Positions 11,205 to 51,021 of a stretch of 64,000 bases of DNA are shown one piece after another (position 1 is the stretch's first letter; every line of letters starts with the position of its first letter). The position numbers and the translations under genes are program-made. Below the pieces are notes generated by a model. The model saw only the letters and a program-made list of their open reading frames with translations, did not search any database and had not been told where the DNA came from. This DNA is from an uncultured Flavobacteriales bacterium (lineage in GTDB: Bacteria > Bacteroidota > Bacteroidia > Flavobacteriales_G > Salibacteraceae). The stretch spans positions 186,001 to 250,000 of the forward strand of contig CAJQLE010000003.1 of the NCBI GenBank assembly GCA_905479105.1. Direction: 5' to 3'.

Positions 11205-11400
11205 TAACGTGGTTAAATCTTCGCGAAGCTAAGTTATCGCGGAGTTTATCGGGACTTTTATAGTTCGGTATTTGTTGGGGATAGTATATAGACAAAGTCT
11301 TAAAATACCTTATTCAATGGCCTATCATCCGATGGCGAAAGCAACTTATATTATCTTCATCGTCTTGAAAACGATCCGAATAATTAGAAAAATAGATTTT

Positions 11401-28555: not shown

Positions 28556-28705
28556 TAATTTGAGATTTCTATTTTTTACAAAGGTTTCTATTTCATCTTT
28601 TTTCTAAAAAATCTTTGATCTCAACCCAACCTTATTCGTTAAATCTGCGTGAATCACCTTGATTATGCGGAACAAGCGCATTTTCCCTTTAAATTTGAGT
28701 TTGAA

Positions 28706-34700: not shown

Positions 34701-37700
34701 ATGCTTCAGGTGGTTCCGCTCCTTACACATACTTGTGGAGCAATGGAGGGACTGCAGATACAATTACTGGACTCATAGCGGGAACGTATATTGTAACAGT
34801 AACGGACAATAATCTTTGCGCAGATACTGCTCAAGTTATTGTGAATGCACCTTCATCCTTAGTTGCGTCAATCATTAATCCAATTAATGCATTATGTGAT
34901 GGTTCAACCAATGGTTCGGCTGAAGCTCAAGGTTCATTAGGAACTGCACCTTACACCTTCCTGTGGGATAATGGTGAAACTTCTTCAATTGCCGTGGCGC
35001 TTGATTCAGGAACCCATTGCGTTACAGTTACCGATGCTATTGGATGTGCAGATACAGCTTGTATAAGTATTACGGATCCTGATCAAATCACCTTTTTATT
35101 TACTGAAACTCCTATTTCATGCGGAGGTGCTGGAAATGATGGTGCGCTTACCGTAGCTTCTATTGGTGGCACTGGTGTACATACCTATTTATGGAATACT
35201 GGAGCTGCAGGGAATTCAATTACAGGTTTGGTGACTGGCACTTACACAGTGACAGCAACTGATGCCAACGGGTGTCAGAATAGTGAATCTTACACCATGG
35301 ATCCTCCAGGAAACTTCACAGTTGCAATGGTTGATAGCTTAGATATAGATTGTTTTGGAAATAATAATGGTGAGGCTGAAGTTCAAGCAATAACAGGTGG
35401 GTCAGGATCATATTCTTTCCTATGGGATAATGGTTCTACTACCAATATTGTCACAAACTTGACCTCTGGCCTTCACTCAGTTACAGTTACAGACCTAATC
35501 ACCACTTGCTTGGATACAGCGTCAGTTACTATTGACGAGCCAACACAATTGATAGCGTCTATTGATTCTAGCGTTGATAACCTTTGCTTCAATGGAACGG
35601 ATGGCTCAGCTGCTGGATCTGGAAGTGGTGGAACACCACCTTATACATTGACGTGGTCAAATGGAGATGTGGGAGTTTTGGCAGATTCATTACCAGCTGG
35701 AATGGTTACAGTTACAGTTACAGATGCAAATGGGTGTACTGATACGGACCAAATAATGATTGGTCAACCAGCTACAGGTTTAGAGGCCTCAGTTGTGGTA
35801 AACGCTCAGCCATTGTGTGCCGGAGATAGCGCGACCATTACTGCCTCTGCAATTGGTGGAAGTGGAGTCTATGCTTTCTTATGGCCTAATGGCGCAACTA
35901 CAACAACTGTTTTACTTCCTGCAGGATCATATTGTTTGACAGTAACTGACGGAGGAGTCTGTGAGGATACAGCCTGTGTTACAATCATTGATCCACTTCC
36001 TGTTATCGCTACTGTAACCATTATCACGCCTGCTTGTCCAAGTGGAAATGACGGTACACTTACACTAGCAGGTTCTGGAGGAGATGGAGGTCCTTATACT
36101 TATCTATGGGATGATGCTTCTACGAATCCGACTCGTACAAATCTTACGGCTGGCACATACTTTTTTACAATAACGGATGCTAGTGGATGTTCAGGAAACT
36201 CTTCTGCAATTCTTGTTGATCCAGCTGGCATGACAGCTACATTCCCTACTACAACTATTTCCTCCTGTGGAACTTGCAACGGAACAGCTACTGTAAGTAT
36301 TGCAAACGGAACAGCGCCTTATACCTTTGCTTGGTCTAGTGGATCTGCAACGGCAAATGGTTCGAGTCTATGTTCAGGATCTAATTCTGTTACAGTTACT
36401 GATGCCAATGGTTGTATAGATACTTTCTTCGTGAATATTGGAAGTATAGGTGCAGATACGGTTGTGGCAACTGTTGTTAATAATGTCACTTGCAATGGTG
36501 GTGTTGATGGATCAGCATTAGCAACGTATGTCTGCAACGTTGCTCCATGTACAATTGCTTGGATTGATTCAGCAACCAACAATAATGTTGGTAATGCAGA
36601 TCTAGCTACTGGTTTGAGCGCGGGCACATACTACGCTCAATTAACGAATGATTCAGGTTGTATAGGTTTAGATACGATAACTATTACAGAACCAACACCA
36701 GTAGTAGGTTCTACTACTTTTATCTCTAGCGTTTCTTGCCCTGGAGGTAATGATGGATCAGCCTCAGTTTCTGCCACAGGTGGTTCACCGGGTTATACCT
36801 TCTTATGGGATAACGGTGAAACAAATGCTACAGCCATTGCACTTGGTGTTGGAACGCATTGCGTTACTGTCACCGATACACTTGGATGCACTGATACGGC
36901 ATGTGTAAACATTGGTGAGCCTGCCAACGGTGTATCGGTAACGGCAAGTATCGTGACTGGGCTCTTGTGTAATGGCGGTAATAATGGTTCGGTAACTGCG
37001 GTTGGCTCAGGTGGGACAGCTCCTTATTCATTCACTTGGAATGGAGCTATTGTTTCTACAACGCTGAATAACTTGTCTGCTGGCTCTTACATTGTAGAGA
37101 TAACGGATGCAGGCGGTTGTACAAGTCTAGACACTGTTGTCCTTATTGATCCAATTGCGATCACCGGAGCGTTCTCTGGTGTTTTTGATCCATCTTGTTT
37201 CGGTGAAACAAATGGTTCGGCCACATTAACTGGGAGTGGGGGAACAGGTCCTTACACTTATCTGTGGGCATCTGGAAACACCAATCAAACTGAAACAGGA
37301 TTGACTGCAGGACAGCATTGTGTTGATATCACGGATGCGAATGGTTGTACAGAACAATTCTGTGTTACTTTGATTGACCCAGCGCCTATCACGAATACGT
37401 TCACTGCAATAACCGGTTCTAGCTGCACAGTATGCGATGGAACGGCAACTGCCAATCCGCTTCCTGCTGCTGGTGCTCCTTATACCTTCTTATGGAATAA
37501 CGGACAAACCACAGCAACCAACGATTCACTTTGTGCAGGAATTAATCAAGTAACAATTACGGATGCTTCAGGCTGTGAGTTTATCGACAATGTGCCAATC
37601 AATGCAAACGGTGCTGACCTTGTTTCAGCCGACAGTATTGATGCTTCTTGCGGAAACTGTGACGGTTTAGTATTCGCAACGTACACATGTACAACAGCTC

Positions 37701-40700
37701 CTTGCACCTTAGAATGGACTGACCTTGGATCTGGTTTAGTAATTGGAACAACGGATACAATATTCAATTTATGTGCTGGATCTTACAGTATAGAATTGAC
37801 AAATGGTGCGGCCTGTATTTCTTCAGACATTGTTTCTGTGAACGTTCCTGATCTTATTGATCCTAATGAAATAATTACAGACGCTTCTTGCTTCGGTTCT
37901 TGTGATGGTGCAATTGCACTAGCTCCAACTGGAGGATCTGGTGTATTCACATTTGCTTGGAGTAATGGTCCAACTTCATCAAATAACACAGGTTTGTGTG
38001 CTGGAGATTATACAGTCACAATAAGTGATGGTGCAGGTTGCGATTCCATAACAACATTCACCATTGACCAACCAAGTGAAATCACTCTTGATAGTACAGT
38101 GGTTGATGCATCTTGTTCTGGCATATGCGATGGATCAATTGCAATCATTGCTTCTGGAGGCGCGGGAGGTTATTCCTTCAATTGGAGTCCAGTTCCTGGA
38201 AATGGAAATGGATTGTCATTGGCTTCTGGCTTATGTGCAGGAACGTATTTCTTAACGGTTACTGATGCGAATGGATGTACAACCCTTGACACATTTAACA
38301 TAGGGCAGCCAGCAGCTATTGTGCAGAATGCGGTAACTGTAAATGGTGCTACTTGTGGAGTATGCGATGGATCGATTATTCCAACAATAACTGGTGGAGC
38401 TGGAGGCTTTACTTATGCATGGTCTACCGGTGCCATTTCAGATACCTTAGGATCTCTTTGCTTCGGCTTCTATGATGTAACAGTGACAGATGCTGCAGGT
38501 TGTTTCGAAGTATTCGGATACCCAGTATCTGAAACTACTGGTCCAGCAATTACGCTGACTTCTACAAATACTTCAGCGAGTGGGGTGTGTGATGGAACAG
38601 CAACGGTCAACTCAGGTGTATCTCCGTTGACCTACTTATGGTCAAATGGTGATGTGACTCAAACGACAAGTAACTTGTGTGCAGGATTCTATATTGTCAC
38701 TGTAACTGATGTCAATGGATGTAATACAGTAGACACAATTACAATCACAGAACCAGATGCTCTTGATGTAACATTTGGTGTTACTGAAATAACGTGTGCT
38801 GGAAACGGATGTGATGCAGAAATTCTAGCAATTGTAACTGGCGGAGTTAGCCCATACATATTTGCTTGGTCTAATGGAGCAACGACTGAATTGATCACTG
38901 GACTTTGCGCTGATACTTACGTATTGACAGTTACGGATGATAATGGTCAGGTGCTGATTGATTCAGTAACTATAACTGATCCACAGCCATTTATAATTGT
39001 GTCTGTTGCTAACGATGTGTCTTGTCCTGGTGAGTGTGATGGAAACATTTCAATGACTGTATCTGGTGGTAATCCGCCTTACACTATTCTTTGGAATACA
39101 GGTGATACCACACTTGCAATTACTGACCTGTGTGGCGGTAACTACAGCGTGACAATTACAGACACGGCTGGCTGTTCTGATAGTTTAGACTTCATTATTG
39201 ATGATCCAGCACCAATTGTTGGAAATGTTGTTTCTCAAGTGGAACCAGATTGTCAAGTGAATAATGGTTCAATTACAGTTTCTGCTTCTGGTGGAAATGG
39301 AGGCCCTTACGCTTACGAATGGCTAGATGCTTTAGGAAACGCATTAATTCCTGCTCAAACAGATAGTGTTGCTTCTAACTTATTTGCCGGTATCTATGGT
39401 GTAAGAATAGTTGATGTGAATGGTTGTATAGACACCACAGGCATCATTCTTAATAATTTGAACGCACCAGTGATTGATCTTGATCTATTGGTTGACGTAA
39501 GTTGTTTCGGGGAATGTGATGGAGCTATCAATACTACAATATCAGGTGGTGTTGCTCCTTATAACATCCTCTGGTCTAATGGCGACACAACGGATGATAT
39601 CGATTCACTTTGTGCTGGAGATGACACCATTGCTGTGGTTGATGCTAACTTGTGTGCTTCATTTAATATCTATACGATATCGCAACCTACAGAAATCACG
39701 ATTGCCGCAATTGATGTAACTGATGTTACGTGTGGAGCTGATTGCGATGGTATCATTGATATCAGTATCGCTGGTGGCACCGAGCCTTATGTATTTGCTT
39801 GGAGCAATGGCAGCACTGATAGCACGATTACTGGACTTTGTGCAGGTGATTATACACTTACAGTTACGGATGGAAATGGATGTATATTCATTACAACTGA
39901 AACGGTTGGTGGTCCTTCTCCTTTGGTCATTACACTTGACTCAATTGATGATGCAACTTGTACGAACACAGGTGATGGAGCGGTTCAAATCACTGTTACA
40001 GGTGGTTCAGCTCCCTACACATACAATTGGATAAGTGATACAACTTCTATCTTGACTAGCTCTGATTTAAGTGGAGTATTGGCGGGCAATTACACCCTCA
40101 TAGTAACTGACGTGAATGGATGTACCCTAGCTGATACGTTCACCATCGATGCTGAATTCTTTGTTGATGTAATTGCAATGGACGATATTGAAGTGTGTCC
40201 ATTTACAAACCAAGTTCCTATTACAGGAACTAACACGGGTGCTTCATCTGTAAGATGGTTGAACCTAAATGGCGTTGTAGCAGCTTCAGGTAACTCACTA
40301 GTTGTAAATACAACTTCACAGACGACAACGTACATCTATGAAGGTGTAAATGGAGTTTGTGTTGATCGAGACACAGTCAACATTACTTGGGCTCCAGGTC
40401 CTGGAATTGATGCTGGTCCTGATAAGTCGATTGTTCCAGGTGATATAACATCAATTGGAGGTGCTCCAACCGCGAGAGCCGGAATTGAAGTTATATGGAC
40501 ACCAGCTCAGGATTTAACGAGTATTACGGAATACAATCCTCAAGCTAACCCATTGGAGACAATCACATACTATGTAAGCGCAACTGATCCTGATGGATGT
40601 TTCGGAATAGATAGTGTCACCATAACGGTAGAAGAGTTAGTTGATCCTGTAGGTGGATTCTCTCCAAATGGAGATGGTGTGAATGACTTCTTCCTGATCG

Positions 40701-40909
40701 ATCGAATTGGTGACTACCCGAATGCGATAGTTCAGATATTCAATCGATGGGGTAACTTAATTTACGAGTCATCCGCTGGATATACTAATCCTTGGAATGG
40801 TAAGCATAACGGCAAAGAATTGACCGTTGGAACTTACTACTACGTAATTGATCTGAAGGATGATCAAGTGAAAAACTTAGTTACTGGACCAGTTACGATT
40901 CTTAAATAA
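28706..40909 (+). CDS. Giant SprB-like repeat adhesin (about 4070 residues) with T9SS type B sorting domain
   Basis: About 4067 residues from the ATG at 28706 (28718 is also possible); either leads into a signal peptide (LFTRFFVIAVIALFSTLMYS). By eye I count about 42 SprB-type repeats of roughly 80-95 residues, each with a Cys-x-G...DG start, a GG-x-PYTYxWSNG core and a TVTDANGC end. Three modules break the run: two copies of a nidogen-like domain (29408-29990 and 33152-33790) and one C-type lectin-like domain (32221-32590). The C-terminus has Ig/PKD-like domains, then the gliding-motility type B sorting signal (SPNGDGVNDFFLID, IFNRWGNLIYES, PWNGKHNGKELTVGTYYY). SprB of Flavobacterium is a cell-surface adhesin moved by the gliding motor; here adhesion and carbohydrate binding are inferred from the domains. 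sprF follows directly. Confidence 0.92.
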   Translation: MKFTMHLFTRFFVIAVIALFSTLMYSVDSKAQSVSITSVDVLNESCAGLSDGQITINKAGGTGPFGFYIVFFNGTSLDTITQISNVFPNLAATNYDTYVVDSNDLTKDSVTSVNVIQGNNFIFLAFSNILPACDTLCNGRASALTFGGTNPKTYLWDDGSTAGPTNNALCGGVRAVTVTESGGCEATSSIVIPDGPAIYAVLDSTSDASCNGANDGRAYFTPHGGYGPSTSTASYVIDQTQNSFEPYDTAFTGGTLVTLTDDQVSASLPIGFSFEFFGNTYTNFRISSNGFITFSGSSNNGCCAGQNIPAVGLPNDLIAGYWEDLNPAAGGRIEFYTMGAGSNEALVVNFLEVPHFGGGNLVTFQIVLYETSNIIQIFGLDLNSNGGDHTQGVENNAGTVGFTGSGRNAADWSAANDYIAFIPESQNFTYNWSSIGSGTSATNLTAGNYIVTITDTRSCNDTIQFQIAEPSPIVIDTVLTQPSCAGNADGAITASATGSNGGPFTFAWSTGATTATITGLTAGTYTVTATDVTGCANSLAAALTDPAAVAASINLDNDVSCFGGADGQLTANGAGGSPGYTFLWTTGSTNQTISSLIAGNYTVTVTDINGCTDTTSQVVSQPPTLVTVTTSSTAVSCFGGNDGTATANNATGGTPGYTYLWNTGATSQTINTLIAGTYIVTATDANGCTDTAHAIVGQPATGVDVTVNLVTDVSCNGLTDGGITINNPTGGTPPYTFLWSNGSTSQNLSGVGTGTYIVTATDAGGCTDTVSAFVDEPAILAVDTTSTTQPTCAGSTNGSITIAATGGTAPVTFLWSTGSTATTVNGLVAGIYTVTATDVNGCTDNLSVTLVDGPGVTADVSPFDPTCAGENSGSAIGGVISGTGTLPFSYAWSTGASNQFLTGLTAGTYTLTVTDGAGCQDDTTFTLIDPLAVIATIIDSINPTCANNDGSTQALGTGGSGALTYAWSNGGNTALISNLSAATYTVTVTDANGCFDTANVVLDVAPLLTANGVLIANETCITNDGSASVAVVGGTVPFTFAWTGGGNTQTIINLAAGTYTATVTDANNCSDTAQVIVADSCACNWTASGVLVNDALCNGENSGNGTTTNTGATAPITYLWSDGSTNDSLINAPAGTYIVTLTDANGCTDTASVIINEPTILSATVYTPPVIPGFTYIGENGNQFIYYHAASETWTAARATSVAAGGDLIVISDAVDQAYYSSVLPGNSWIGLTDEVLEGTYVWVDGTVATFFNWNAGEPNNFGGDEDYIHFTGANDFWNDLAGFQVRPYGMVIDKSSLNLNNVTCNGGNDGSAVITGAGGSLPYTYAWSNGAITDTITGLTAGTYIGTITDNNGCTAVDTAVISEPAPIVFNGFTGITNPSCDDACDGAAAASATGGVAPLTYAWSSGSASATATSLCGGGHTVTITDANGCDTVQMVALVEPPVIYAVVDSTDSASCNGVADGAAYLSGYGGTVAPTNTSEYVIDQTEGAYEPYPQGRPWNAHNYKTVTLQDDANSDTTNIFGGANFSFFGNNHTDFVMSSQGFISFDLTLANVVSPGQFSNSLALPSAAANQPNNIIAAFWEDLDPSVGNATIETYLIGTVPNRIRVVNYINVDHFLNATNGSGDISTFQIVLYESSNIIQIHSEVLDPDLGGLHVQGIENATGTVAYTPSGRNNTNFSATNDYVAFIPKTQNFNYTWSSVGTGASSSVLPAGNYTVTVADGICNDVVNFTIDEPASLLASITSSVAPTCFGGSDGQATVAPSGGDAPYTFLWTSGETTATALGLSVGLNTVTVTDANGCTQTASTTLPNGAAINVGIASTNSFCFVCTGTATATVVGALSPFTYSWSTGVVNNVASTSNQLTALCSGPYGVTVTDANGCVDSNATNVSDNFVPNVTITVTPASCANTCDGTADANYTCFFGCQPYRWYSGLDTTNLIGTGDLITGLCPGTYLGRLTTNFGCDGYDTIIINAPAPIILVMDSIDATCGAANGIATVNASGGSAPYTYLWSNGGTADTITGLIAGTYIVTVTDNNLCADTAQVIVNAPSSLVASIINPINALCDGSTNGSAEAQGSLGTAPYTFLWDNGETSSIAVALDSGTHCVTVTDAIGCADTACISITDPDQITFLFTETPISCGGAGNDGALTVASIGGTGVHTYLWNTGAAGNSITGLVTGTYTVTATDANGCQNSESYTMDPPGNFTVAMVDSLDIDCFGNNNGEAEVQAITGGSGSYSFLWDNGSTTNIVTNLTSGLHSVTVTDLITTCLDTASVTIDEPTQLIASIDSSVDNLCFNGTDGSAAGSGSGGTPPYTLTWSNGDVGVLADSLPAGMVTVTVTDANGCTDTDQIMIGQPATGLEASVVVNAQPLCAGDSATITASAIGGSGVYAFLWPNGATTTTVLLPAGSYCLTVTDGGVCEDTACVTIIDPLPVIATVTIITPACPSGNDGTLTLAGSGGDGGPYTYLWDDASTNPTRTNLTAGTYFFTITDASGCSGNSSAILVDPAGMTATFPTTTISSCGTCNGTATVSIANGTAPYTFAWSSGSATANGSSLCSGSNSVTVTDANGCIDTFFVNIGSIGADTVVATVVNNVTCNGGVDGSALATYVCNVAPCTIAWIDSATNNNVGNADLATGLSAGTYYAQLTNDSGCIGLDTITITEPTPVVGSTTFISSVSCPGGNDGSASVSATGGSPGYTFLWDNGETNATAIALGVGTHCVTVTDTLGCTDTACVNIGEPANGVSVTASIVTGLLCNGGNNGSVTAVGSGGTAPYSFTWNGAIVSTTLNNLSAGSYIVEITDAGGCTSLDTVVLIDPIAITGAFSGVFDPSCFGETNGSATLTGSGGTGPYTYLWASGNTNQTETGLTAGQHCVDITDANGCTEQFCVTLIDPAPITNTFTAITGSSCTVCDGTATANPLPAAGAPYTFLWNNGQTTATNDSLCAGINQVTITDASGCEFIDNVPINANGADLVSADSIDASCGNCDGLVFATYTCTTAPCTLEWTDLGSGLVIGTTDTIFNLCAGSYSIELTNGAACISSDIVSVNVPDLIDPNEIITDASCFGSCDGAIALAPTGGSGVFTFAWSNGPTSSNNTGLCAGDYTVTISDGAGCDSITTFTIDQPSEITLDSTVVDASCSGICDGSIAIIASGGAGGYSFNWSPVPGNGNGLSLASGLCAGTYFLTVTDANGCTTLDTFNIGQPAAIVQNAVTVNGATCGVCDGSIIPTITGGAGGFTYAWSTGAISDTLGSLCFGFYDVTVTDAAGCFEVFGYPVSETTGPAITLTSTNTSASGVCDGTATVNSGVSPLTYLWSNGDVTQTTSNLCAGFYIVTVTDVNGCNTVDTITITEPDALDVTFGVTEITCAGNGCDAEILAIVTGGVSPYIFAWSNGATTELITGLCADTYVLTVTDDNGQVLIDSVTITDPQPFIIVSVANDVSCPGECDGNISMTVSGGNPPYTILWNTGDTTLAITDLCGGNYSVTITDTAGCSDSLDFIIDDPAPIVGNVVSQVEPDCQVNNGSITVSASGGNGGPYAYEWLDALGNALIPAQTDSVASNLFAGIYGVRIVDVNGCIDTTGIILNNLNAPVIDLDLLVDVSCFGECDGAINTTISGGVAPYNILWSNGDTTDDIDSLCAGDDTIAVVDANLCASFNIYTISQPTEITIAAIDVTDVTCGADCDGIIDISIAGGTEPYVFAWSNGSTDSTITGLCAGDYTLTVTDGNGCIFITTETVGGPSPLVITLDSIDDATCTNTGDGAVQITVTGGSAPYTYNWISDTTSILTSSDLSGVLAGNYTLIVTDVNGCTLADTFTIDAEFFVDVIAMDDIEVCPFTNQVPITGTNTGASSVRWLNLNGVVAASGNSLVVNTTSQTTTYIYEGVNGVCVDRDTVNITWAPGPGIDAGPDKSIVPGDITSIGGAPTARAGIEVIWTPAQDLTSITEYNPQANPLETITYYVSATDPDGCFGIDSVTITVEELVDPVGGFSPNGDGVNDFFLIDRIGDYPNAIVQIFNRWGNLIYESSAGYTNPWNGKHNGKELTVGTYYYVIDLKDDQVKNLVTGPVTILK
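28800..40150 (+). repeat. Array of about 42 divergent SprB-type coding repeats
   Basis: Repeats of about 240-290 bp lie within the giant gene, each beginning with a Cys-x-G...DG unit and ending with T-D-A/x-N-G-C. The copies are well diverged at DNA level, and no two neighbouring copies look near-identical. The first three copies are more degenerate. The repeat count is a visual count from translation. Confidence 0.85.
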
Positions 40910-40918
40910 TTGAAAACT

Positions 40919-41863
40919 ATGAGATTTATGAAAAAGCTCATCGCGATATCCATTGTCCTGATTGCCTTTACGCAAGCTAAAGCTCAACAGCTAGAGCAGT
41001 GGACACAGTTCTTTTTGAATGAATACATGGTTAATCCAGCTGTGTCAGGAACGGAAGATTACTTTCAAGCCAATGCGCTATATCGCGATCAATGGGTCGG
41101 AATTCAGGATGCGCCTCGCACGTATTATTTAAGTGTTCAAGGACCAATCGTTAAGCAAACAATGGGAATAGGTGGAACCATTTTCAGCGATGTAGTAGGT
41201 CAAACCCGCAGAAACGGTTTTCAAGCATCTTATGCCTACCATTTGAAGGTTTCTGAAGATTACAAATTGAGTTTTGCTTTATCCACGGGTATGCTTCAGT
41301 TTGCGATTGATGGAAGCAAGATTGATTTGGATCAAGCGAATGATATTGCATTGAGCAGTGGTTTGATGTCCTTGTGGTCATTAGACTTTGGTTCGGGTGT
41401 GCGTTTCTCTGCTAAGAATTGGCATGCTGGTATTTATGTACCTCAAATTGCAGGATTGAAAGCACAGTTTTTCAATGACTACTCTGAGACGGAAAGCGTG
41501 TTAGCGCGTCACTATTATATCAATGGAGGTTATCGATATGACTTTGATGATACATGGGCCATTGATGCGAACTTCTTAGGTAAGATTGTGGGTTCAATTG
41601 ATATTTACGATACGCAGGTAAGAGGAATCTACAAAGACATGGTTTGGTTAGGTTCATCCATTCGATATGCTTTTGTATCCGGAGCTTCGGTGCAAGCAAT
41701 AGGATTCATGACAGGATATCAGTTTGAGAACAACTTAAGTATAGGATATGCATACGACTTGAATGTTGGAAAAATTGGAGCAGCCACTTCTGGCTCACAT
41801 GAGATAGTGCTGGGAATAAGGTTTAATAAACCGAATAAAGCACCGCTAATTCCTGCAGAATAA
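40919..41863 (+). CDS. sprF: PorP/SprF family T9SS-associated outer-membrane protein
   Basis: A protein of 314 residues (ATG 40919, or 40928 four codons on); signal peptide LIAISIVLIAFTQAKAQ. The start of the mature protein, QQLEQWTQFFLNEYMVNPAVSG, and the following glycine-rich barrel strands (QASYAYHLKVSEDYKLSFAL, YINGGYRYDFDDTW, FMTGYQFENNLSIGYAYDL) are hallmarks of the PorP/SprF family. SprF is needed for surface delivery of SprB in F. johnsoniae. The start lies 9 nt after the SprB-like stop, so the pair is one unit. A perfect terminator follows. Confidence 0.93.
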   Translation: MRFMKKLIAISIVLIAFTQAKAQQLEQWTQFFLNEYMVNPAVSGTEDYFQANALYRDQWVGIQDAPRTYYLSVQGPIVKQTMGIGGTIFSDVVGQTRRNGFQASYAYHLKVSEDYKLSFALSTGMLQFAIDGSKIDLDQANDIALSSGLMSLWSLDFGSGVRFSAKNWHAGIYVPQIAGLKAQFFNDYSETESVLARHYYINGGYRYDFDDTWAIDANFLGKIVGSIDIYDTQVRGIYKDMVWLGSSIRYAFVSGASVQAIGFMTGYQFENNLSIGYAYDLNVGKIGAATSGSHEIVLGIRFNKPNKAPLIPAE

Positions 41864-43987: not shown

Positions 43988-44059
43988 TGCCCCATCGTCT
44001 AATTGGCAGGACAGCGGTTTTTGGTACCGTCAGTCAAGGTTCGAGTCCTTGTGGGGCAA
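43988..44059 (+). tRNA. tRNA-Gln (anticodon TTG)
   Basis: Full cloverleaf: acceptor TGCCCCA (43988-43994) with TGGGGCA (44052-44058), D arm with GTCT/GGAC, anticodon stem GCGGT/ACCGT (one G-T) around loop TTTTGGT with anticodon TTG, and T arm CAAGG/CCTTG around TTCGAGT. The discriminator is A and CCA is not encoded. It decodes CAA and CAG glutamine codons. Confidence 0.95.
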
Positions 44060-44073
44060 CTTTTAAGCATATT

Positions 44074-44341: not shown

Positions 44342-44467
44342 TCTTTTGTTTGTGTGTTGGGTTTTGATCATTTCCTCGGGTTTGTAGTCTCTCAAAATTA
44401 GAGTGTTGTCTCTCCGTGACCTAGAGAAAATGTTGAATTTAACGTTAAGGTTTTTATTTTTCATAGC

Positions 44468-44616
44468 AGATAACGTTCCTGGCTATGAACGTTACTGGCT
44501 ATGGCTAGTACGGCATTTTGAAAACGTTTCCGCCCGCCAACTGGTGGGTGGTTATTGAAAGTACAAAATATTATTTTTTACTTTCAAACCGGCATTAGCT
44601 AAAGCCGCTGTTGTGC
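44468..44616 (-). other. attC-like site A (distal end of the array, after the Fic gene)
   Basis: Outer boxes are AGATAAC (44468-44474) and GTTGTGC (44610-44616). Inner arms GGCTATGGCTAGTACGG (44497-44513) and CCGGCATTAGCTAAAGCC (44589-44606) pair with a few mismatches and one extrahelical base. The left arm carries a tandem 16-bp duplication with one mismatch (44472-44487, 44488-44503). The loop holds further hairpins (CCCGCC/GGTGGG). It starts 13 nt after the Fic stop codon. Confidence 0.6.
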
Positions 44617-44629
44617 ACCGTATTTATTA

Positions 44630-45586
44630 TTATTTCAAGTGATAAGTTGTCAATCTTTTATCGCCTGATTTTGAGAATAACCCTTTTTCAATTCCAGTTT
44701 TTAAGTCTCTACTGGCTGAAGCACTGCTTAATTGCTTGAAGACTTGCATATAGTCTTTTCTGGTAAATGAGTCCATCTTTAGAGAGCAGAAGTGTTGTAG
44801 TCTATTTTCCTGTGTCATATTCACAGATACAGAATTTCCAATTAATTCTGCTAGGGTGTCATTTACAACGGAAAGCATATATTCAATGAATTCAGTCGAT
44901 TTTCCTGTTTTGTCACAGATGGAGAGTACTTTGTAATAGTCTTCTTGTGACTTTGATATTAATGTTTCAAAGGGTAAATATTGAAACACAGGATATTTTG
45001 ACATTAATATTATTGTTTGCCATAATCGCCCCATTCTGCCGTTTCCGTCTGTAAAAGGATGGATAAATTCCATTTCGTAGTGGAAAACGCAACTTTTTAT
45101 TAAAGTGATTTCCTCGTCATTTTTTAAGTAATCAAAAAGGTCTTTCATTAAATATTGGACATTTTCAGATGGAGGTGCCAAGTGCTCAATTTTAGAACCT
45201 TTTACAATACCCACTCCTTCTTTTCGAAATGCTCCTGGATTATCTATTAATCCTTCCATTAGTGTCTTGTGAGCTTTTAAAAAGGAGTTAATTGAATCAA
45301 CTTTATAGTCAATTATCGACTCGTAAACTTTTATGGCATTTTGAACTTCTTTGATGTCTTTTGATGGGCCAATCACTCTTTTATTTTCGAGTATTGCGGT
45401 TATTTGCTGTTCTGTTAGAGTGTTGCCTTCAATCTGCAAAGAAGAGTGAATCGTTTTGATTTGATTTTGTTTTCGAAGGCTAGGGGAGGACTTTATTAAA
45501 AATGAAGCATTTACTTCTCCAATTTTCTCGGAGACACTAGTAATTAGTCCTAAAATCTTAGTATTAATTTCATAGGGAGGCTTCAT
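44630..45586 (-). CDS. Fic family AMP-transferase-type protein, self-inhibited class
   Basis: A protein of 318 residues from the ATG at 45584-45586; an in-frame TTG at 45610 is unlikely. The Fic active-site loop HPFTDGNGRMGR (His at 176, Asn of GNGR) is complete, so it should transfer AMP or another phosphate-linked moiety to a target Ser/Thr/Tyr. The motif SLQIEGN at residues 49-55 matches the inhibitory helix (S/T)xxxE(G/N), placed N-terminal as in class II Fic proteins, so no separate antitoxin is needed. A winged-helix-like C-terminus (about 260-318: FTRKDYMQVFKQLSSASA, then KGLFSKSGDKRLTTY) follows. It forms the last cassette of the array. Target unknown. Confidence 0.9.
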   Translation of the reverse strand: MKPPYEINTKILGLITSVSEKIGEVNASFLIKSSPSLRKQNQIKTIHSSLQIEGNTLTEQQITAILENKRVIGPSKDIKEVQNAIKVYESIIDYKVDSINSFLKAHKTLMEGLIDNPGAFRKEGVGIVKGSKIEHLAPPSENVQYLMKDLFDYLKNDEEITLIKSCVFHYEMEFIHPFTDGNGRMGRLWQTIILMSKYPVFQYLPFETLISKSQEDYYKVLSICDKTGKSTEFIEYMLSVVNDTLAELIGNSVSVNMTQENRLQHFCSLKMDSFTRKDYMQVFKQLSSASASRDLKTGIEKGLFSKSGDKRLTTYHLK

Positions 45587-45651
45587 AATAGTATCATTTG
45601 ATAGTATCAAAGATAGGTTTTCTATGAAATTGGTCGGCTTTTTAATATGGT

Positions 45652-45703
45652 GTACAACGGTCTGGCTAAACTGCGTTTTAATGCAGTTTAGGTGGTGTTA
45701 GCA
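45652..45703 (-). other. attC-like site B (after the T9SS-protein cassette gene)
   Basis: Boxes GTACAAC (45652-45658) and GTTAGCA (45697-45703). Inner arms CTAAACTGC and GCAGTTTAG pair perfectly around a short loop, and unpaired spacers (GGTCTGG; GTG) separate them from the outer boxes, as in attC structures. It begins 4 nt after the stop of the minus-strand T9SS gene. At 52 bp it is the shortest site of the array. Confidence 0.7.
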
Positions 45704-45707
45704 AACG

Positions 45708-46397
45708 TTATTCTTTTAAAATCTTAGTGTTTACGATGTCATTATTTTGGTTAAAAACTCTCACCAGATAGACGCCAGATGGATAATCACTAATATTTAA
45801 TGCATATGTTCTGGAATTTAAATCCTTTTTAAATATTAGCCTACCAGTTATACTAAATAGTTCTATTTTTAAAAGTTGACCTTTATCTAAGCTTATATTT
45901 ATTACATCACTTGATGGATTTGGAAATACACTTGCAGTGGTAGGTTCGATATCATCAATACCTACTGTATTTGTTACATCTACACCTACATTACCGTAAA
46001 CAAATTCCCATCTTGCAGTAAAAACACCCGGAGTAATTTCAGTCACTTCCCAATATAATTTATCTTCTATCAAACATGCAATTCCAGCCGAGTCATTTGT
46101 TAAAAGTGCAGTAACATTCATTGTATCGGTAAGAGGAATATTATGATAAAACAAAAAATCACTGTTATTAGTTAAAGTATCGTCTGCAATAATATTAGCT
46201 TGAGAATCTGTAATCTCCCACACAATAACATTTTCACTTTGTGGCCAAGTTAAATAGTGACCGGGATGATATAATTTAACCAAACCAGTATCAGATACAT
46301 TAACTATTAAGTTCATCATGCCGCAACTAACTTGTGCTTGTGTTGTTTGAGTTAGCCCTGAAGCAATAATTAAAGAAAGTAGAATTTTTTTCATCAC
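45708..46397 (-). CDS. Small secreted protein with T9SS type A sorting domain (cassette gene)
   Basis: A protein of 229 residues. Signal peptide MMKKILLSLIIASGLTQTTQ. A middle part of about 120 residues contains no motif I recognise (VIVWEITDSQANIIADDTL, WEVTEITPGVFTARWEFVYG). The last about 75 residues are a type A T9SS sorting domain (SVFPNPSSDVINISL, LFSITGRLIFKKDL, YPSGVYLVRVFN). It should be exported and tethered or released at the surface. A single-gene cassette; function unknown. Confidence 0.8.
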   Translation of the reverse strand: MMKKILLSLIIASGLTQTTQAQVSCGMMNLIVNVSDTGLVKLYHPGHYLTWPQSENVIVWEITDSQANIIADDTLTNNSDFLFYHNIPLTDTMNVTALLTNDSAGIACLIEDKLYWEVTEITPGVFTARWEFVYGNVGVDVTNTVGIDDIEPTTASVFPNPSSDVINISLDKGQLLKIELFSITGRLIFKKDLNSRTYALNISDYPSGVYLVRVFNQNNDIVNTKILKE

Positions 46398-46484
46398 TTT
46401 GTTTTCTTAAAGTTCAAACATATCATTTTTATTTGGAGACATCAATAATTCCATATTTCAGGACAAGACAATGCTATTAATGTT

Positions 46485-46680
46485 TGCTAACGTTTACCTA
46501 TGTTTAGTACGGATTTACAAAGAGCAAAACCCTCAATAACGCACATAGCCTAAAGTTAATATTTTGTTTTTAAATTATTCTTGTTTTAAACACCAAATTT
46601 AAGTTTAGGCGGACTTTCTATGGAATACAGAACTTTCAATTTAGCGCTGAGTTCCGTATTAAATATAGAAATTGTTATGC
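46485..46680 (-). other. attC-like site C (after the lipoprotein-esterase cassette gene)
   Basis: Boxes TGCTAAC (46485-46491) and GTTATGC (46674-46680). Inner arms CTATGTTTAGTACGGA (46498-46513) and TCCGTATTAAATATAG (46653-46668) pair at 14 of 16 positions. The loop is long (about 140 nt), so this is larger than most attC sites. It starts 11 nt after the stop of the minus-strand esterase. Confidence 0.65.
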
Positions 46681-46691
46681 ACTTTTATTCT

Positions 46692-47567
46692 TTATCTCAA
46701 TCCATTTATGTCATATCGTGATACAAAATTCCAAACCAATTCAGATGTGTTCTGACCTTGAAAAGTTGCGCTAAACCAAACATGGTCTCCGCCAATGTAT
46801 TTGTAATGCTCAACAGTAACTAAGCTATCTCCTTGATCATAAACATAATGTTCAATATTGTTGTCACTTGTTACTGTTGGGGTTAAAACTGTATTATTGA
46901 AATTAATCCAATGGTCCAACGTGCTTTGAGCAGAGTTCCAGTCACTATTCCCATTATAGGGAAGAACACCATCAGAGGTTCCGTGAAGATGCACTACCGG
47001 CATTGGATGACTTGTAGGTTCAGTACAATCTAACATAACTCCTGAAACAGATGCTACCGCAGCAATTAAATCACTTTTATAGTTCGCAAGTCCATATGCC
47101 ATCATGCCTCCGTTTGAGTATCCAGCAGCATAAATTCTCTCCATATCTATATTATACTGAGATGAGATTTCAGTTATCATAGATTCAATAAATCCAAAAT
47201 CATCAGCATTACTTTTATTGTCTCCTCCTAATGGACAAGCGTTCCAATGAGATAAACCATCTAAACAGCTACCTTGAGGATAGATTAAAATAAAAGTGTC
47301 AGCTTCTGCCAATGAGCGCATATCTGCTTCTTGCATATAATCACTTGCACTACCACCAAACCCATGAAAATTCAGCATTAGTGGAACAGAAGATGTTCCA
47401 TCATAAGAGTTTGGTATATACAACACATATTCTCTGTTGATACCGTCATGAACTATGGTCTGTGCGTTAGTATTTGAGTAACATTCCTCTGGGTTTTTAT
47501 TATCATCTTTTTTACAACTGCTTAGAATTGATAATAAAATGGTAAATAGTAAAATTGCTTTTTTCAT
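46692..47567 (-). CDS. Lipoprotein alpha/beta hydrolase, LpqC/feruloyl-esterase/PHB-depolymerase-like (cassette gene)
   Basis: A protein of 291 residues. Lipoprotein signal peptide with lipobox LSSC (Cys18). The esterase core shows LMLNFHGFGGSASDY (oxyanion hole), the nucleophile Ser151 in AAGYSNGGMMAY, ASVSGVM and the catalytic His in GGDHVWF. This fits the LpqC/PHB-depolymerase esterase family acting on polymers or feruloyl esters outside the cell. It resembles the neighbouring cassette esterase, sharing the C-terminal motif FVSRYDINGL. The cassette ends in site C. Confidence 0.85.
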   Translation of the reverse strand: MKKAILLFTILLSILSSCKKDDNKNPEECYSNTNAQTIVHDGINREYVLYIPNSYDGTSSVPLMLNFHGFGGSASDYMQEADMRSLAEADTFILIYPQGSCLDGLSHWNACPLGGDNKSNADDFGFIESMITEISSQYNIDMERIYAAGYSNGGMMAYGLANYKSDLIAAVASVSGVMLDCTEPTSHPMPVVHLHGTSDGVLPYNGNSDWNSAQSTLDHWINFNNTVLTPTVTSDNNIEHYVYDQGDSLVTVEHYKYIGGDHVWFSATFQGQNTSELVWNFVSRYDINGLR

Positions 47568-47608
47568 TATACAGTTCTTTAATTTTTTTAACTCCTATTT
47601 CTTTTTGT

Positions 47609-47675
47609 GCATAACGGTTCGTGTATGGTGTCGTAGCAACCCGAAGGGGGCTATGCACTATACACATTGTTATGC
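47609..47675 (-). other. attC-like site D (between the two esterase cassettes)
   Basis: Boxes GCATAAC (47609-47615) and GTTATGC (47669-47675) are perfect complements. Inner arms GTGTATGGTG (47621-47630) and CACTATACAC (47656-47665) pair with one G-T, separated from the boxes by unequal spacers (5 and 3 nt). The loop holds a CCC/GGG hairpin (AACCCGAAGGGGG). At 67 bp it is the most typical attC in the array. It starts 4 nt after the stop of the second esterase. Confidence 0.75.
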
Positions 47676-47679
47676 ACTT

Positions 47680-48810
47680 TTATTTTGTTTTTATCAGCCT
47701 TGTGGATTGATTTTCAATATTCAAAATATAAACATTAGGAGCTAAAAAAGATAAATCGATTATACTTATTTGAGAATTCAGAACTCCACTCAACACCAAT
47801 TCTCCAATTGGATTGTATAATCTAAATTCCTTTTCCTCCGCTAACCCCAGATCTATCGTTAGCTCTGTATTAACAGGGTTTGGATAAACCCTATAATTTT
47901 CCAGCATACTATTATTTTCATGTATTGAAGTTGTCGCACATCCAATTAAACCGTTTATGTCATAACGAGAAACAAATTGCCAAATCTCTTCATTCGCATC
48001 AATCGTCATATTCCCAAAACTCCCAGGCCAATCGTGTCCTCCGCCTATCACTTTTAGTTCCTCTACATAGGCACAACCTGATGAAGTGGACCAAGTATAT
48101 CGCTCAACACTTGGACTTACAGCACTCATGGTGGCAGTTGTGTCACAATTGTTACGCGTTGCCCAATATCTATGTGTTGCTGCTGCGGAAATATAATATT
48201 CTATACCCCCAAAAACGATTCCATTGTATGGTGAAACCAAGTCATTCGTACCAAGTATTGTAAGAACTCCAGTGGGATGCACCGGAGAGCAAAAACTATT
48301 TGGATTGGTTTGCATGGTTCTGGCTACCGGAGCTATAGCTGCAATTCTGTTATTGAGCTTACATCCAAGTTCAAAGGCCATATCTCCTCCTAAGGAATAC
48401 CCACAAGCATATATTCTGTGCTGGTCTATTTGATAATTACTAGCAATCGTATCTATCAATGAACTAAAAAAGGGCACATCATCAAAAGTACCTGGGACTT
48501 TAGGAATCCAGTTAAAAGAGTTTCCGTCACTTGGGTCAGGACGTGCTTGGGGATAAACTAGAATAAAATCAGCAGTGTCGGCAATAGGTCGCATGTCAGC
48601 AGATACTTGCCAAGCGGAATTTGTACCACCTCCTCCATGTAAATTAAATAGCAAAGGAAAATTTGTAGTTCCATCATAACTTGCTGGAACATAAATGCTA
48701 TATCCTCTTGTTAAGCCATCATTCTGTATGGTTTGGCTAATAAATGTTTGGGAGTACCCTGAGGTAAATAAGGCTGTTGTCGCCAGAATGGAGATAAGTA
48801 TTTTTTTCAT
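47680..48810 (-). CDS. Secreted alpha/beta hydrolase, feruloyl-esterase/LpqC-like, with T9SS type A sorting domain (cassette gene)
   Basis: A protein of 376 residues. Signal peptide MKKILISILATTALFTSGYS. The catalytic domain (about 30-290) has LLFNLHGGGGTNSAW (oxyanion hole), nucleophile Ser139 in ACGYSLGGDMAFELG, and the His region VIGGGHDWPGS. A type A sorting domain ends it (YRVYPNPVNTELTIDL). It resembles the adjacent lipoprotein esterase (shared FVSRYDINGL), but this one is T9SS-exported and the neighbour is lipid-anchored. It is the first cassette next to the recombinase gene. Confidence 0.85.
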   Translation of the reverse strand: MKKILISILATTALFTSGYSQTFISQTIQNDGLTRGYSIYVPASYDGTTNFPLLFNLHGGGGTNSAWQVSADMRPIADTADFILVYPQARPDPSDGNSFNWIPKVPGTFDDVPFFSSLIDTIASNYQIDQHRIYACGYSLGGDMAFELGCKLNNRIAAIAPVARTMQTNPNSFCSPVHPTGVLTILGTNDLVSPYNGIVFGGIEYYISAAATHRYWATRNNCDTTATMSAVSPSVERYTWSTSSGCAYVEELKVIGGGHDWPGSFGNMTIDANEEIWQFVSRYDINGLIGCATTSIHENNSMLENYRVYPNPVNTELTIDLGLAEEKEFRLYNPIGELVLSGVLNSQISIIDLSFLAPNVYILNIENQSTRLIKTK

Positions 48811-48862
48811 TTTTTTTTATTATTTACTGAAGTAAATCCGGTTTATCCTACTTTTTAATTGT

Positions 48863-48893
48863 GCATAACAATTGTAAATAGTGATAGTCACTA
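48863..48893 (-). other. Half site E (attI-like candidate) between the recombinase gene and the first cassette
   Basis: GCATAAC (48863-48869), then a spacer and the inverted repeat TAGTGA-TAG-TCACTA (48879-48893). On the minus strand it ends with GTTATGC, which matches the R' box of the first cassette's site D. It resembles one arm of site D (shared GTGCATAACAAT on the plus strand versus the minus strand of D), but the second outer box is missing. The place beside the recombinase 3' end suggests an attachment site. Confidence 0.5.
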
Positions 48894-48902
48894 ATATATT
48901 TT

Positions 48903-50120
48903 TTACTGATCATCACCTATAAGTCTTGTTGGTGTTGTGTTTGAGTCAATTATTCTGTCTAATGGGTTGATGATTCCAGCCAGATTCCTGTTGGTAACAT
49001 GGGTGTAAATCTGAGTGGTTTCTAAAGATTTATGACCTAATAATGCCTGGATGATTTTTACATCTGTTCCATTATCCATTAAGTGGGTGGCAAAACTATG
49101 CCGAAGCACGTGCGGAGTCACATCCGCTAAGTTCACTCGCTTGCTCATGTCTTTTACTACTTTACCTACCGAGTTGTCACTATACTTCGTTCGTTTTGGG
49201 TTTTCTAAAAACCAATATTTCGGATGATACAAATCCAAATACCGATGTATGGCCGAAGCCATATGCTTACTTAAAATCGTAACACGGTCTTTTTTACCCT
49301 TAGCACCTCTAATGTTGATCTGCGCTCGATCAATATCTATGTCTTGAATTCTTAAATTGGTCAACTCGCTTCTTCGCATGCCAGTAGAGTAAAGCATAGC
49401 AATAATCATTTGATGCTTCACATTAGTAGTAGAGCCAATCATCCGCGCAACATCCTGCTCTGAGATAATCCTTGGCAACTTTTCTTCCTTTCGCGGTCTG
49501 TCTAGCCAATACTTTTTCTTTTCTAAGCCCAATACATGCTCATAATAAAACTTGATGGCATTGATGGCTTGATTATGTGTGCTTTGTGATACTTGGTTTG
49601 CCTGCACTAAGTTATTCATGTATTTTTTAATCTCCTCTTCGCTTACATCTTTTGGATGCTTCGGGTGAACATAGCGCATAAATTTGAGAAACATACCTGA
49701 ATAAGTATTGACAGTGCTTTGACTGTAGCGTCTTATTAATAGGGTTTCTTTATACTCATCAGGCACTCTTAGTGTTGACACGGGTTTTTCTGCTGAGGCA
49801 ACAGCTTGAGGCATTTTATAATTTGAAATGCGGGCTTTATATGCAATCTTAAAATGCTTTTCCTCAGAAGGTGAAAGCAATCCATTGATTTCCCTGTAGT
49901 CTAACCAAGCTTTGTCTTTAAAGGCATGTTTGATTTTTTCAATCGTCTCGTTTTTATCCTCCAAATACCAGCAATGGTGTGTTTTTGAATAGGTGGCGCC
50001 AAGGGTTTTGGCCTCTTGTTTTAATGCATTGCTGAATGGAAAAAACAATCCCAGACGAAACTTGTCTCGATGAAAAACCCTTCTGATTTTAACATCTATT
50101 TGACCTGAATTAGCCTCCAT
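48903..50120 (-). CDS. Tyrosine recombinase/integrase with extra N-terminal domain
   Basis: A protein of 405 residues. Complete catalytic set: Arg249 (STGMRRSELTNL), Lys274 (RGAKGKKDRV), His337-x-x-Arg340 (TPHVLRHSFATHL), His363 (LLGHKSLETTQ) and Tyr372 (IYTHVTNRNLAG). A SAM-like core-binding domain occupies about 118-205 (RRYSQSTVNTYSGMFLKFMR). Residues 1-95 are an additional domain with aromatic-rich FGLFFPFSN-like and HHCWYLEDKNE segments, which I associate with a Bacteroidota-specific recombinase group. The tail YTHVTNRNLAGIINPLD resembles the end of integron integrases (THVLNRGG..SPLD), but the IntI-specific insertion between catalytic motifs is absent. It is likely the enzyme that moves the adjacent cassettes. 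It has its own promoter. Confidence 0.88.
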   Translation of the reverse strand: MEANSGQIDVKIRRVFHRDKFRLGLFFPFSNALKQEAKTLGATYSKTHHCWYLEDKNETIEKIKHAFKDKAWLDYREINGLLSPSEEKHFKIAYKARISNYKMPQAVASAEKPVSTLRVPDEYKETLLIRRYSQSTVNTYSGMFLKFMRYVHPKHPKDVSEEEIKKYMNNLVQANQVSQSTHNQAINAIKFYYEHVLGLEKKKYWLDRPRKEEKLPRIISEQDVARMIGSTTNVKHQMIIAMLYSTGMRRSELTNLRIQDIDIDRAQINIRGAKGKKDRVTILSKHMASAIHRYLDLYHPKYWFLENPKRTKYSDNSVGKVVKDMSKRVNLADVTPHVLRHSFATHLMDNGTDVKIIQALLGHKSLETTQIYTHVTNRNLAGIINPLDRIIDSNTTPTRLIGDDQ

Positions 50121-50223: not shown

Positions 50224-51021
50224 TTAGTCAATCACTTGCATGCGCTTGCTGTCTATCATCGCTCCATTCTCCCAAAGAGAGTAGAAGTAAATACCAGCTT
50301 CCAATTCACCGTTCATAGTGTATTGTCCTGAATTATTGTTCAATGAAACTTGATTCACCAATTTACCAGTCAAATCATGAAACTTTAAGATTCCGTTTGA
50401 AGAGGTCAATTGATAGTTGATCACCGTAAAATCCTTAGCAGGATTTGGTGCGTTTTGTGAAATACCGCTCGCATAAGCCGATGCAACATCATCCAACCCA
50501 AGTGGCACATATTGTCCGCCAATCAATTGGAAAGTGTCACCATTCACCACTATTACTGGAATGCCATCTACAAAACCTTCTATGGTGTCATTTGGAGCTG
50601 CCGCTTCTGTGCTCACATAAAAATTGCTGCATGTAAGGGTGTTTGCTGAATCGTTCACGTCAAATACGCAAAACTCGCTCACTCCAGCTCCAGAATCAGT
50701 CTTGACCAAAATGTGATGGAATATCTCAGACTCACCACTAGCGTCAACCACGATGTCGTTAAAGCGCTTAGTAGTTGGCCAGCAAATCAACGTACCTTCG
50801 CAGATGTAATCTTCCCAATTTTCTTCACCAACAAAATCAGCGGTCATACGCCATCTTAGGTTCAAATCATTGGCAGTATTGTTCACAATGTTGATGTCAA
50901 CATTCACGTCAGCACCCACTGTAGTATTAACGGCTGTGTCGTTTAAAATATCGAATGAAAAGTCTTGAGAGAAACCCAAAACTGGCAATATCATAAGGGC
51001 TAAAAAGTATATTTTCCTCAT
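50224..51021 (-). CDS. Secreted protein with T9SS type A sorting domain
   Basis: A protein of 265 residues. Signal peptide MRKIYFLALMILPVLGFSQ. The middle has a beta-sandwich look (VNVDINIVNNTANDLNLRWR, EIFHHILVKTDSGAG) with two cysteine pairs (CEGTLIC and CVFD/TLTC). The last about 75 residues form the sorting domain (ISQNAPNPAKDFTVINYQL, FHDLTGKLVNQVSL, LEAGIYFYSLWENGAM). Function unknown. It is closed by a strong terminator and marks the inner border of the island. Confidence 0.85.
   Translation of the reverse strand: MRKIYFLALMILPVLGFSQDFSFDILNDTAVNTTVGADVNVDINIVNNTANDLNLRWRMTADFVGEENWEDYICEGTLICWPTTKRFNDIVVDASGESEIFHHILVKTDSGAGVSEFCVFDVNDSANTLTCSNFYVSTEAAAPNDTIEGFVDGIPVIVVNGDTFQLIGGQYVPLGLDDVASAYASGISQNAPNPAKDFTVINYQLTSSNGILKFHDLTGKLVNQVSLNNNSGQYTMNGELEAGIYFYSLWENGAMIDSKRMQVID

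Follow-up and report, generated by a model that had tools for sequence, protein, structure and literature searches.

Two adjacent genes in this stretch encode esterases of one family that carry different export signals, which raises the question of whether one was copied from the other in place or whether each arrived separately. In the 64,000-nt window analyzed here (G000:C3:186001–250000, from a genome of 2.79 Mb that is 99.85% complete), the two genes, termed est1 (46692–47567) and est2 (47680–48810), belong to an array on the (−) strand that runs from a tyrosine recombinase (48903–50120) through est2, est1, and a small T9SS-tail protein (45708–46397) to a Fic-domain protein (44630–45610), with tRNA-Gln (43988–44060) on one side and a T9SS-tail gene (50224–51021) on the other. 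Elsewhere in the window, positions 28649–41863 hold a 4086-aa repeat protein and then a 317-aa protein, a pair that we tentatively liken to a gliding adhesin and its accompanying protein (SprB- and SprF-like). We propose, with a probability of roughly 85%, that the array is an integron-like platform and that est1 and est2 were captured separately, as ready-made cassettes, from a pool common to Bacteroidota families.

A reading made from the sequence only had assigned both ORFs to the same esterase family, and this held: the coordinates were right, and the catalytic domains proved homologous, with 41% identity over 271 positions (164 bits, E 2e-54) and 43% in a separate search of the same genome. 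That search returned nine matches at E 1e-3 (est2, est1, and seven others that fall wholly or mostly in the T9SS tail) and no third esterase paralogue. A different protein in another part of the genome (L102, G000:C1:488001–508000, about 9885–10124) has a T9SS tail ~48% identical to that of est2, with no attC seen in its printed flank. Against NF050058 (type 1 scl-PHA depolymerase/CE1-like esterase; cut-off 150), est1 scored 162.5 bits and est2 136.7 bits, below the cut-off; PF10503 matched est1 (39.9 bits; cut-off 23) and was absent from the est2 profile matches at E 1e-3. The LpqC/feruloyl-esterase fold claimed earlier was borne out by an AF2 model of est2 (mean pLDDT 73.8, with five stretches below 50), which matched acetylxylan esterase 9j07 (Z 25.9, 2.7 Å over 251 residues) and the PHB-hydrolysing esterase 9byu (Z 25.6, 3.0 Å over 245). 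Since these are the nearest structures, the substrates of est1 and est2 are likely acylated polysaccharides or polyesters, as judged from the fold alone.

The catalytic triads, assigned by motif, are Ser151, Asp199, and His262 in est1 and Ser139, Asp190, and His259 in est2, with GYSNGG and GYSLGG, GTSD/GTND, and GGDH/GGGH all present; the GxSxG nucleophile motif occurred in 48/48 family rows. As esterases, the two are ordinary in kind. Both also contain FVSRYDINGL near the domain end (residue 281 of est1 and 279 of est2), as had been noticed from the sequence. This exact string was found in 6/48 family rows, every one in the est1 or est2 clade described below, and looser forms such as FFAKYDING were common across the rows, indicating a motif of the domain end rather than a sign of recent shared origin; we therefore rejected it as proof of recent kinship.

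Specifically, est1 starts with a lipoprotein signal whose lipobox is LSSC with Cys18, and est2 joins a signal peptide and the esterase domain to a T9SS type A tail (TIGR04183, 30.0 bits, cut-off 23; PF18962, 35.3 bits, cut-off 27). The view that they differ in export route was correct as regards these signals, but not necessarily as regards the final location, since the est1 sequence LSSC18-K-K-D-D-N fits the surface-export motif C-X-K-(D/E)2-X, and an est1 relative in G386 has C-R-K-D-D-N at the same place. According to a study of Capnocytophaga canimorsus, this motif is optimal for surface lipoprotein export there, and the surface-lipoprotein signal deduced in the same source for Flavobacterium johnsoniae differs (SDDFE) (PMC5080379). 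Our prediction is lipoprotein export to the surface for est1 and T9SS export for est2, so that both may reach the cell surface.

The relationship between the two genes was addressed with relatives from 35 family genomes, 42 order genomes, and 395 class genomes (E 1e-75 or better for the class, with 29 of its 42 places used). Each esterase has close relatives in other genomes. Over the catalytic part, est2 is 98% identical to its relative in G032, 94% to that in G011, and 77% to that in G002; it shares 80% with G041a over the whole protein, 86.7% with L168, and 84.5% over 245 residues with L206 (uncultured Saprospiraceae), with the caution that G032 is listed at 7% contamination and has its est2 copy near a contig end and that the G011 copy is cut by a contig end. 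The nearest relatives of est1 are those in G386 (84%) and G003 (78%). In comparison, the identity of est1 to est2 (40.3%) did not exceed its identity to distant family members (G018a, 44.4%; G038a, 43.5%; G041b and G039a, 40.5%), the outcome under which, according to the sequence-only reading, no common origin of the pair would be indicated.

Three trees were built, with 26 rows (of 27, leaving out the fragment G040b), 21 rows (also without the long branches G004a, G004b, G019b, G023, and G034), and 49 rows (of 56, also without the broken G207; the 48-row motif set also lacks G343). All three placed est1 and est2 in separate, well-supported clades; in the 49-row tree, est1 fell in a seven-row clade with support of 98/88 and est2 in another seven-row clade with 100/99. 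Duplication of one esterase cassette within the array, followed by a swap of the export signal in one copy, could explain why the genes are adjacent, share the R box GTTATGCAC, and have FVSRYDINGL in common, and 5′ and attC modules did get exchanged among est2 copies (see below). Yet AU tests rejected an est1–est2 pair at p 1e-71 (21 rows) and 4e-11 (49 rows), which refutes such a duplication under the models used, and each gene has relatives elsewhere that are 75–98% identical to it and share its export type. The trees and AU tests thus reject in-array duplication with domain exchange, a scenario that we regard as extremely improbable. Between the two alternatives offered by the sequence-only reading, the evidence favors separate gain from a common pool and not in-array duplication: est1 and est2, each having its own close relatives elsewhere, were most likely gained separately and not copied from each other.

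The export type follows the subfamily. In the est1 clade, each of the seven rows received a lipoprotein call, and the T9SS motif was found in 5/7 rows of the est2 clade, the other two being G343 and G382a. These labels are regular-expression calls in the 49-row tree, in which G382a, G107, G245, and G160 were left without a label, and the "lipo" label of G343 is false, since its frame is broken and YPNP is visible downstream. The export type was therefore most likely set before capture, and no exchange in this array is needed to explain it. In the 49-row tree, the est1 and est2 clades meet with support of 94/81, which points to an old common ancestor, and G018a and G382a lie inside the joined group. 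That join, together with cassette copies from several genomes in both clades, would also suit an old duplication within the pool of cassettes, one that far predates the arrival of either gene in this genome. However, no attC was present in the flanks, as read, of G003, G102, G320, and G248 on the est1 side and of G002 on the est2 side, so the split may instead be chromosomal, and the position of G018a and G382a within the joined group also argues against a duplication in the pool. We consider it unlikely, although it deserves some weight. None of the nearest relatives outside the window (G003, G002, and G018a) showed an attC in the flank read, which indicates that not every family member travels as a cassette.

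Separate capture as cassettes presupposes recombination sites, and we found an inverted-repeat site 3′ of each of the four genes, all on the (−) strand. The est2 cassette starts at an attI-side R′ box, GTTATGCAC (48861–48869), which lies 33 nt after the integrase stop and pairs exactly with the R″ of est2. It is closed by attC1 (47607–47677), which extends from R″ GTGCATAAC to R′ GTTATGCAC; attC2 (46482–46682) closes the est1 cassette and runs from R″ GTGCATAAC to R′ GTTAGCAAAC. The third cassette, with the small T9SS-tail protein (TIGR04183, 46.4 bits), ends in attC3 (45649–45706), which includes a 24-bp core, TAAACTGCATTAAAACGCAGTTTA, and the fourth, with the Fic-domain protein (PF02661, 73.2 bits), in attC4 (44466–44619), whose left end and R′ are provisional. 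The R′/R″ pairs are therefore GTTATGCAC/GTGCATAAC for both est2 and est1, GTTAGCAAAC/GTTTGCTAAC for the T9SS gene, and, with one mismatch, GTTGTACACC/GGTGCACAAC for the Fic cassette, so that the R″ of attC4 pairs 9/10 with the cassette start. The earlier claim that est1 and est2 occupy adjoining cassettes with different attC sites was accurate: an attC-like site follows each, and the site bodies differ.

These palindromes might instead be terminators or repeats beside ordinary chromosomal insertions. Taken gene by gene, R′/R″ pairing reached 10/10 for the T9SS gene and 9/10 for est2, est1, and Fic, which overlaps the controls (3/39 at 9/10); this makes the single-gene test a moderate one, and the best pair for est1 is a chance tie. 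The weak folding of attC2 and attC4 points the same way. The three linked exact R′/R″ pairs, however, form the only chain of this length anywhere in the 64 kb, and reading either strand recovers it; block shuffling (one per strand) gave no chain of three and three chains of two, and the window holds one further, chance-like chain of two. The attC hallmark, R″ and R′ boxes around an imperfect hairpin with the bottom strand favored, was clear for attC1 (folding z of −5.1 as DNA for the window (+) strand, i.e., the cassette bottom strand, vs −4.1 for the other) and attC3 (z −2.9 vs −2.1). It was weaker for attC2 (z −2.3, with the outer stem formed in the MFE structure) and for attC4 (z −3.7, owed to inner hairpins and not to the R″–R′ stem). 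A mechanical attC scan of the window ranked attC1 first (31.4; one of three shuffles reached 31.1) and missed the other sites because their R′ belongs to the following cassette.

Homology to other genomes weighs more heavily against ordinary insertion, because its edges fall at GTT. The est2 region matched L168, a MAG titled Bacteroidetes bacterium bin.2, from exactly the GTT at 48869 to two bases past R″, and it matched G032 from est2 codon 24 across attC1 as far as the GTT in the R′ of that site. The T9SS cassette (window 45656–46496) was 99.6% identical over 756 bp in L177, from Vicingaceae bacterium AH-660-G13, with the homology carrying on in L144; one end of this homology is at GTT, and the other lies no more than five bases from it. 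In G386, the est1 copy is preceded by R′ GTTATGCAC and followed by R″ GTGCATAAC; its 5′ leader differs from that of est1, so the left edge of est1 is not fixed at base level. At the level of sequence, the edges of est2 (L168 and G032) and of the T9SS cassette (L177 and L144) indicate that such cassettes travel whole, with the GTT crossover point as their border.

Exact copies of the attC3 core occur in at least 115 stretches from the collection of genomes (loci L126–L250), the 80 listed titles being nearly all Bacteroidota, with one Balneolaceae and one Candidatus Aminicenantes MAG included; a slightly looser form occurred in 10/35 family genomes. At the expected spacing, AAC was present in 74/89 occurrences and GTT in 66/89. 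Pairing was analyzed at those 58 of the 89 that have the AAC at its expected position and 800 or more bases of upstream sequence, a set that includes attC3 of the window and a few near-duplicate records. An exact reverse complement of the 9-base R″ lay within 2.5 kb upstream at 24/58 of them vs 0/58 downstream and 0/58 with the R″ of another site, a result that counts against terminators or repeats. At 20 esterase loci, there were no chains of three (one after shuffling) and 20 chains of two (14 after shuffling), and in G041a, R″ no longer pairs with the upstream R′. No est2 relatives were found in viral contigs (tblastn), and a plasmid search gave 41 records, all below 60% identity (24–33% in the 20 listed). 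At L099 (G019:C12:5001–24069, near 9400–11400), we observed a lipoprotein esterase relative with a GTGCACAACAAAACC-like sequence just upstream, CACACAAC downstream, and an integrase fragment ~1 kb away, possibly another esterase cassette.

The tyrosine recombinase at the head of the array has a DUF5710-like N-terminal part and scored 233.5 bits against NF040815 (cut-off 220) and 223.6 bits against TIGR02249, below the cut-off of 265. Conserved blocks that are 66 residues apart in the integron integrase 2a3v are separated by 23 residues in this protein, meaning that the I-patch insert is absent, and ten array-type relatives share this compact form without the insert. Catalytic motif spacing was 63 residues in the window integrase and 63–65 in the 18 of 21 array-type proteins in which both motifs could be located, compared with 69–73 in the 6 of 20 Xer controls in which they could be located. 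TIGR02249 exceeded its cut-off in none of the 35 family genomes, nor in any of 14 control genomes, which leaves this count without a positive control. Cassettes were then looked for at the window integrase and at 20 of the 21 places that rank next in the integrase search (G032:C24 was left out), with 14 loci testable, i.e., having more than 1.5 kb of 3′ DNA. Exact cassette starts lay 24–80 nt after the integrase stop in 9/14 (window included), seven of them with two or more, while only 1/20 Xer controls, hand-picked as lower-scoring relatives, had an adjoining cassette. This difference also counts against ordinary insertions flanked by terminators or repeats, which we judge very improbable. 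Besides the window integrase, array-type integrases head cassette chains at L107, L110, L114, L116, L118, L122, L124, and L125; damaged relatives occur at L112, L114, and L115, with a stop, and at L124, as a fragment.

Domain exchange, invoked earlier to explain the different export signals, is needed nowhere between est1 and est2, but it does have a counterpart among copies of est2, in which the signal-peptide region and the attC body were exchanged. In G032, G041a, and G343, DNA homology to the window begins only at about codon 22–24, past the signal peptide, whereas L168 matches from the GTT on; the 5′ end of est2 thus looks as if it had been exchanged in these three. The signal-peptide end (window 48741–48810; L010, L252, and L273) differs in this way even though the catalytic part and the tail match well. 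The attC body of est2 is of one type in the window and G032 and of the 24-bp core type in G011, L168, L206, and G041a. The switch falls right at the R″ end and not at the usual GTT crossover (window 47607–47677; L086, L088, L168, L206, and L252), and it may be a trace of looser strand choice. An exchange in the proper orientation was seen only for est2, as five other homologous cassette pairs kept their body; among the other mismatches, L152 breaks before R″, and the rest were judged by reading to be ordinary R′ junctions.

Under the separate-capture reading, the platform would consist of the integrase, attI, and four co-oriented cassettes (est2, est1, the T9SS protein, and Fic), each closed by an attC. 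An incoming cassette would join attI or an attC at GTT and bring its own R″, a step in which the edges are observed and the recombination is deduced, as are the identity of the enzyme, the passage through a single-strand hairpin, and the order in which events took place. The trees and homology edges suggest that est1 and est2, as members of two old subfamilies of secreted CE1-like esterases, each arrived as a finished cassette in which the export signal was already present, the donor presumably being the pool shared by Bacteroidota families. The cell would thereby gain two outer-surface esterases by two predicted routes, that of a surface lipoprotein (est1) and that of T9SS export (est2). For the esterases, the analysis tells duplication apart from independent gain and implies that secreted enzymes can travel as complete cassettes with their export signal.

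We also lean, if slightly, toward the broader view that Bacteroidota hold a widespread and largely overlooked kind of integron, in which an I-patch-less integrase with a DUF5710-like N-terminus, co-oriented with its cassettes, drives attC arrays (one type with a 24-bp core identical across the phylum) and spreads surface and secreted enzymes between families and orders. The I-patch is the part of IntI that reads folded attC hairpins, so an enzyme lacking it must read attC in another way, which becomes a directly testable question. If such integrases head many attC arrays, this would explain why I-patch-based searches miss them. A review lists Bacteroidota among integron phyla (PMC8618304), and a Polaribacter phage is described as carrying attC sites, of which one was active with IntI1 (PMC9892861); such sites are hence not without precedent in this phylum. 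A study on attC sources names no Bacteroidetes model among its 11 taxa (PMC8352920), and according to a paper on archaeal integrons, the additional domain of IntI is unique and is required for recombination in integrons (PMC9668308). We found no PMC paper on an I-patch-less Bacteroidota integrase heading attC arrays, preprints and most subscription papers being outside the scope of that search.

Compared with known systems, the esterase domains resemble AoAXEB (9j07) and the PHB-hydrolysing esterase 8daj/9byu in fold over nearly the whole est2 domain (Z ~25) and in the GxSxG, Asp, and His motifs of est1 and est2; they differ in identity (25–28% in the structural alignments), in their bacterial surface signals, and in that est2 falls short of the NF050058 cut-off. 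The best solved relatives of the integrase are the XerA/XerC-like recombinases (4a8e and 5hxy; E ~4e-44), which share its compact catalytic domain, whereas 19/20 Xer relatives in the same genomes have no adjacent cassette array. With sedentary chromosomal integrons, the platform shares a terminal integrase with attI next to it, co-oriented cassettes of one gene each, matching R′/R″ boxes, the bottom-strand fold (attC1 and attC3), and GTT edges. It departs from them in that the integrase lacks the I-patch insert, has an N-terminal extension, and has the same orientation as the cassettes, so that attI lies past its 3′ end, and in that the R boxes follow ~NNMYAAC/GTTRK vs the classic RYYYAAC/GTTRRRY, which fits 4 and 3 of 55. 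Because the platform appears to work like an integron while lacking one defining trait, the I-patch, we regard it as a variant and not as a canonical integron.
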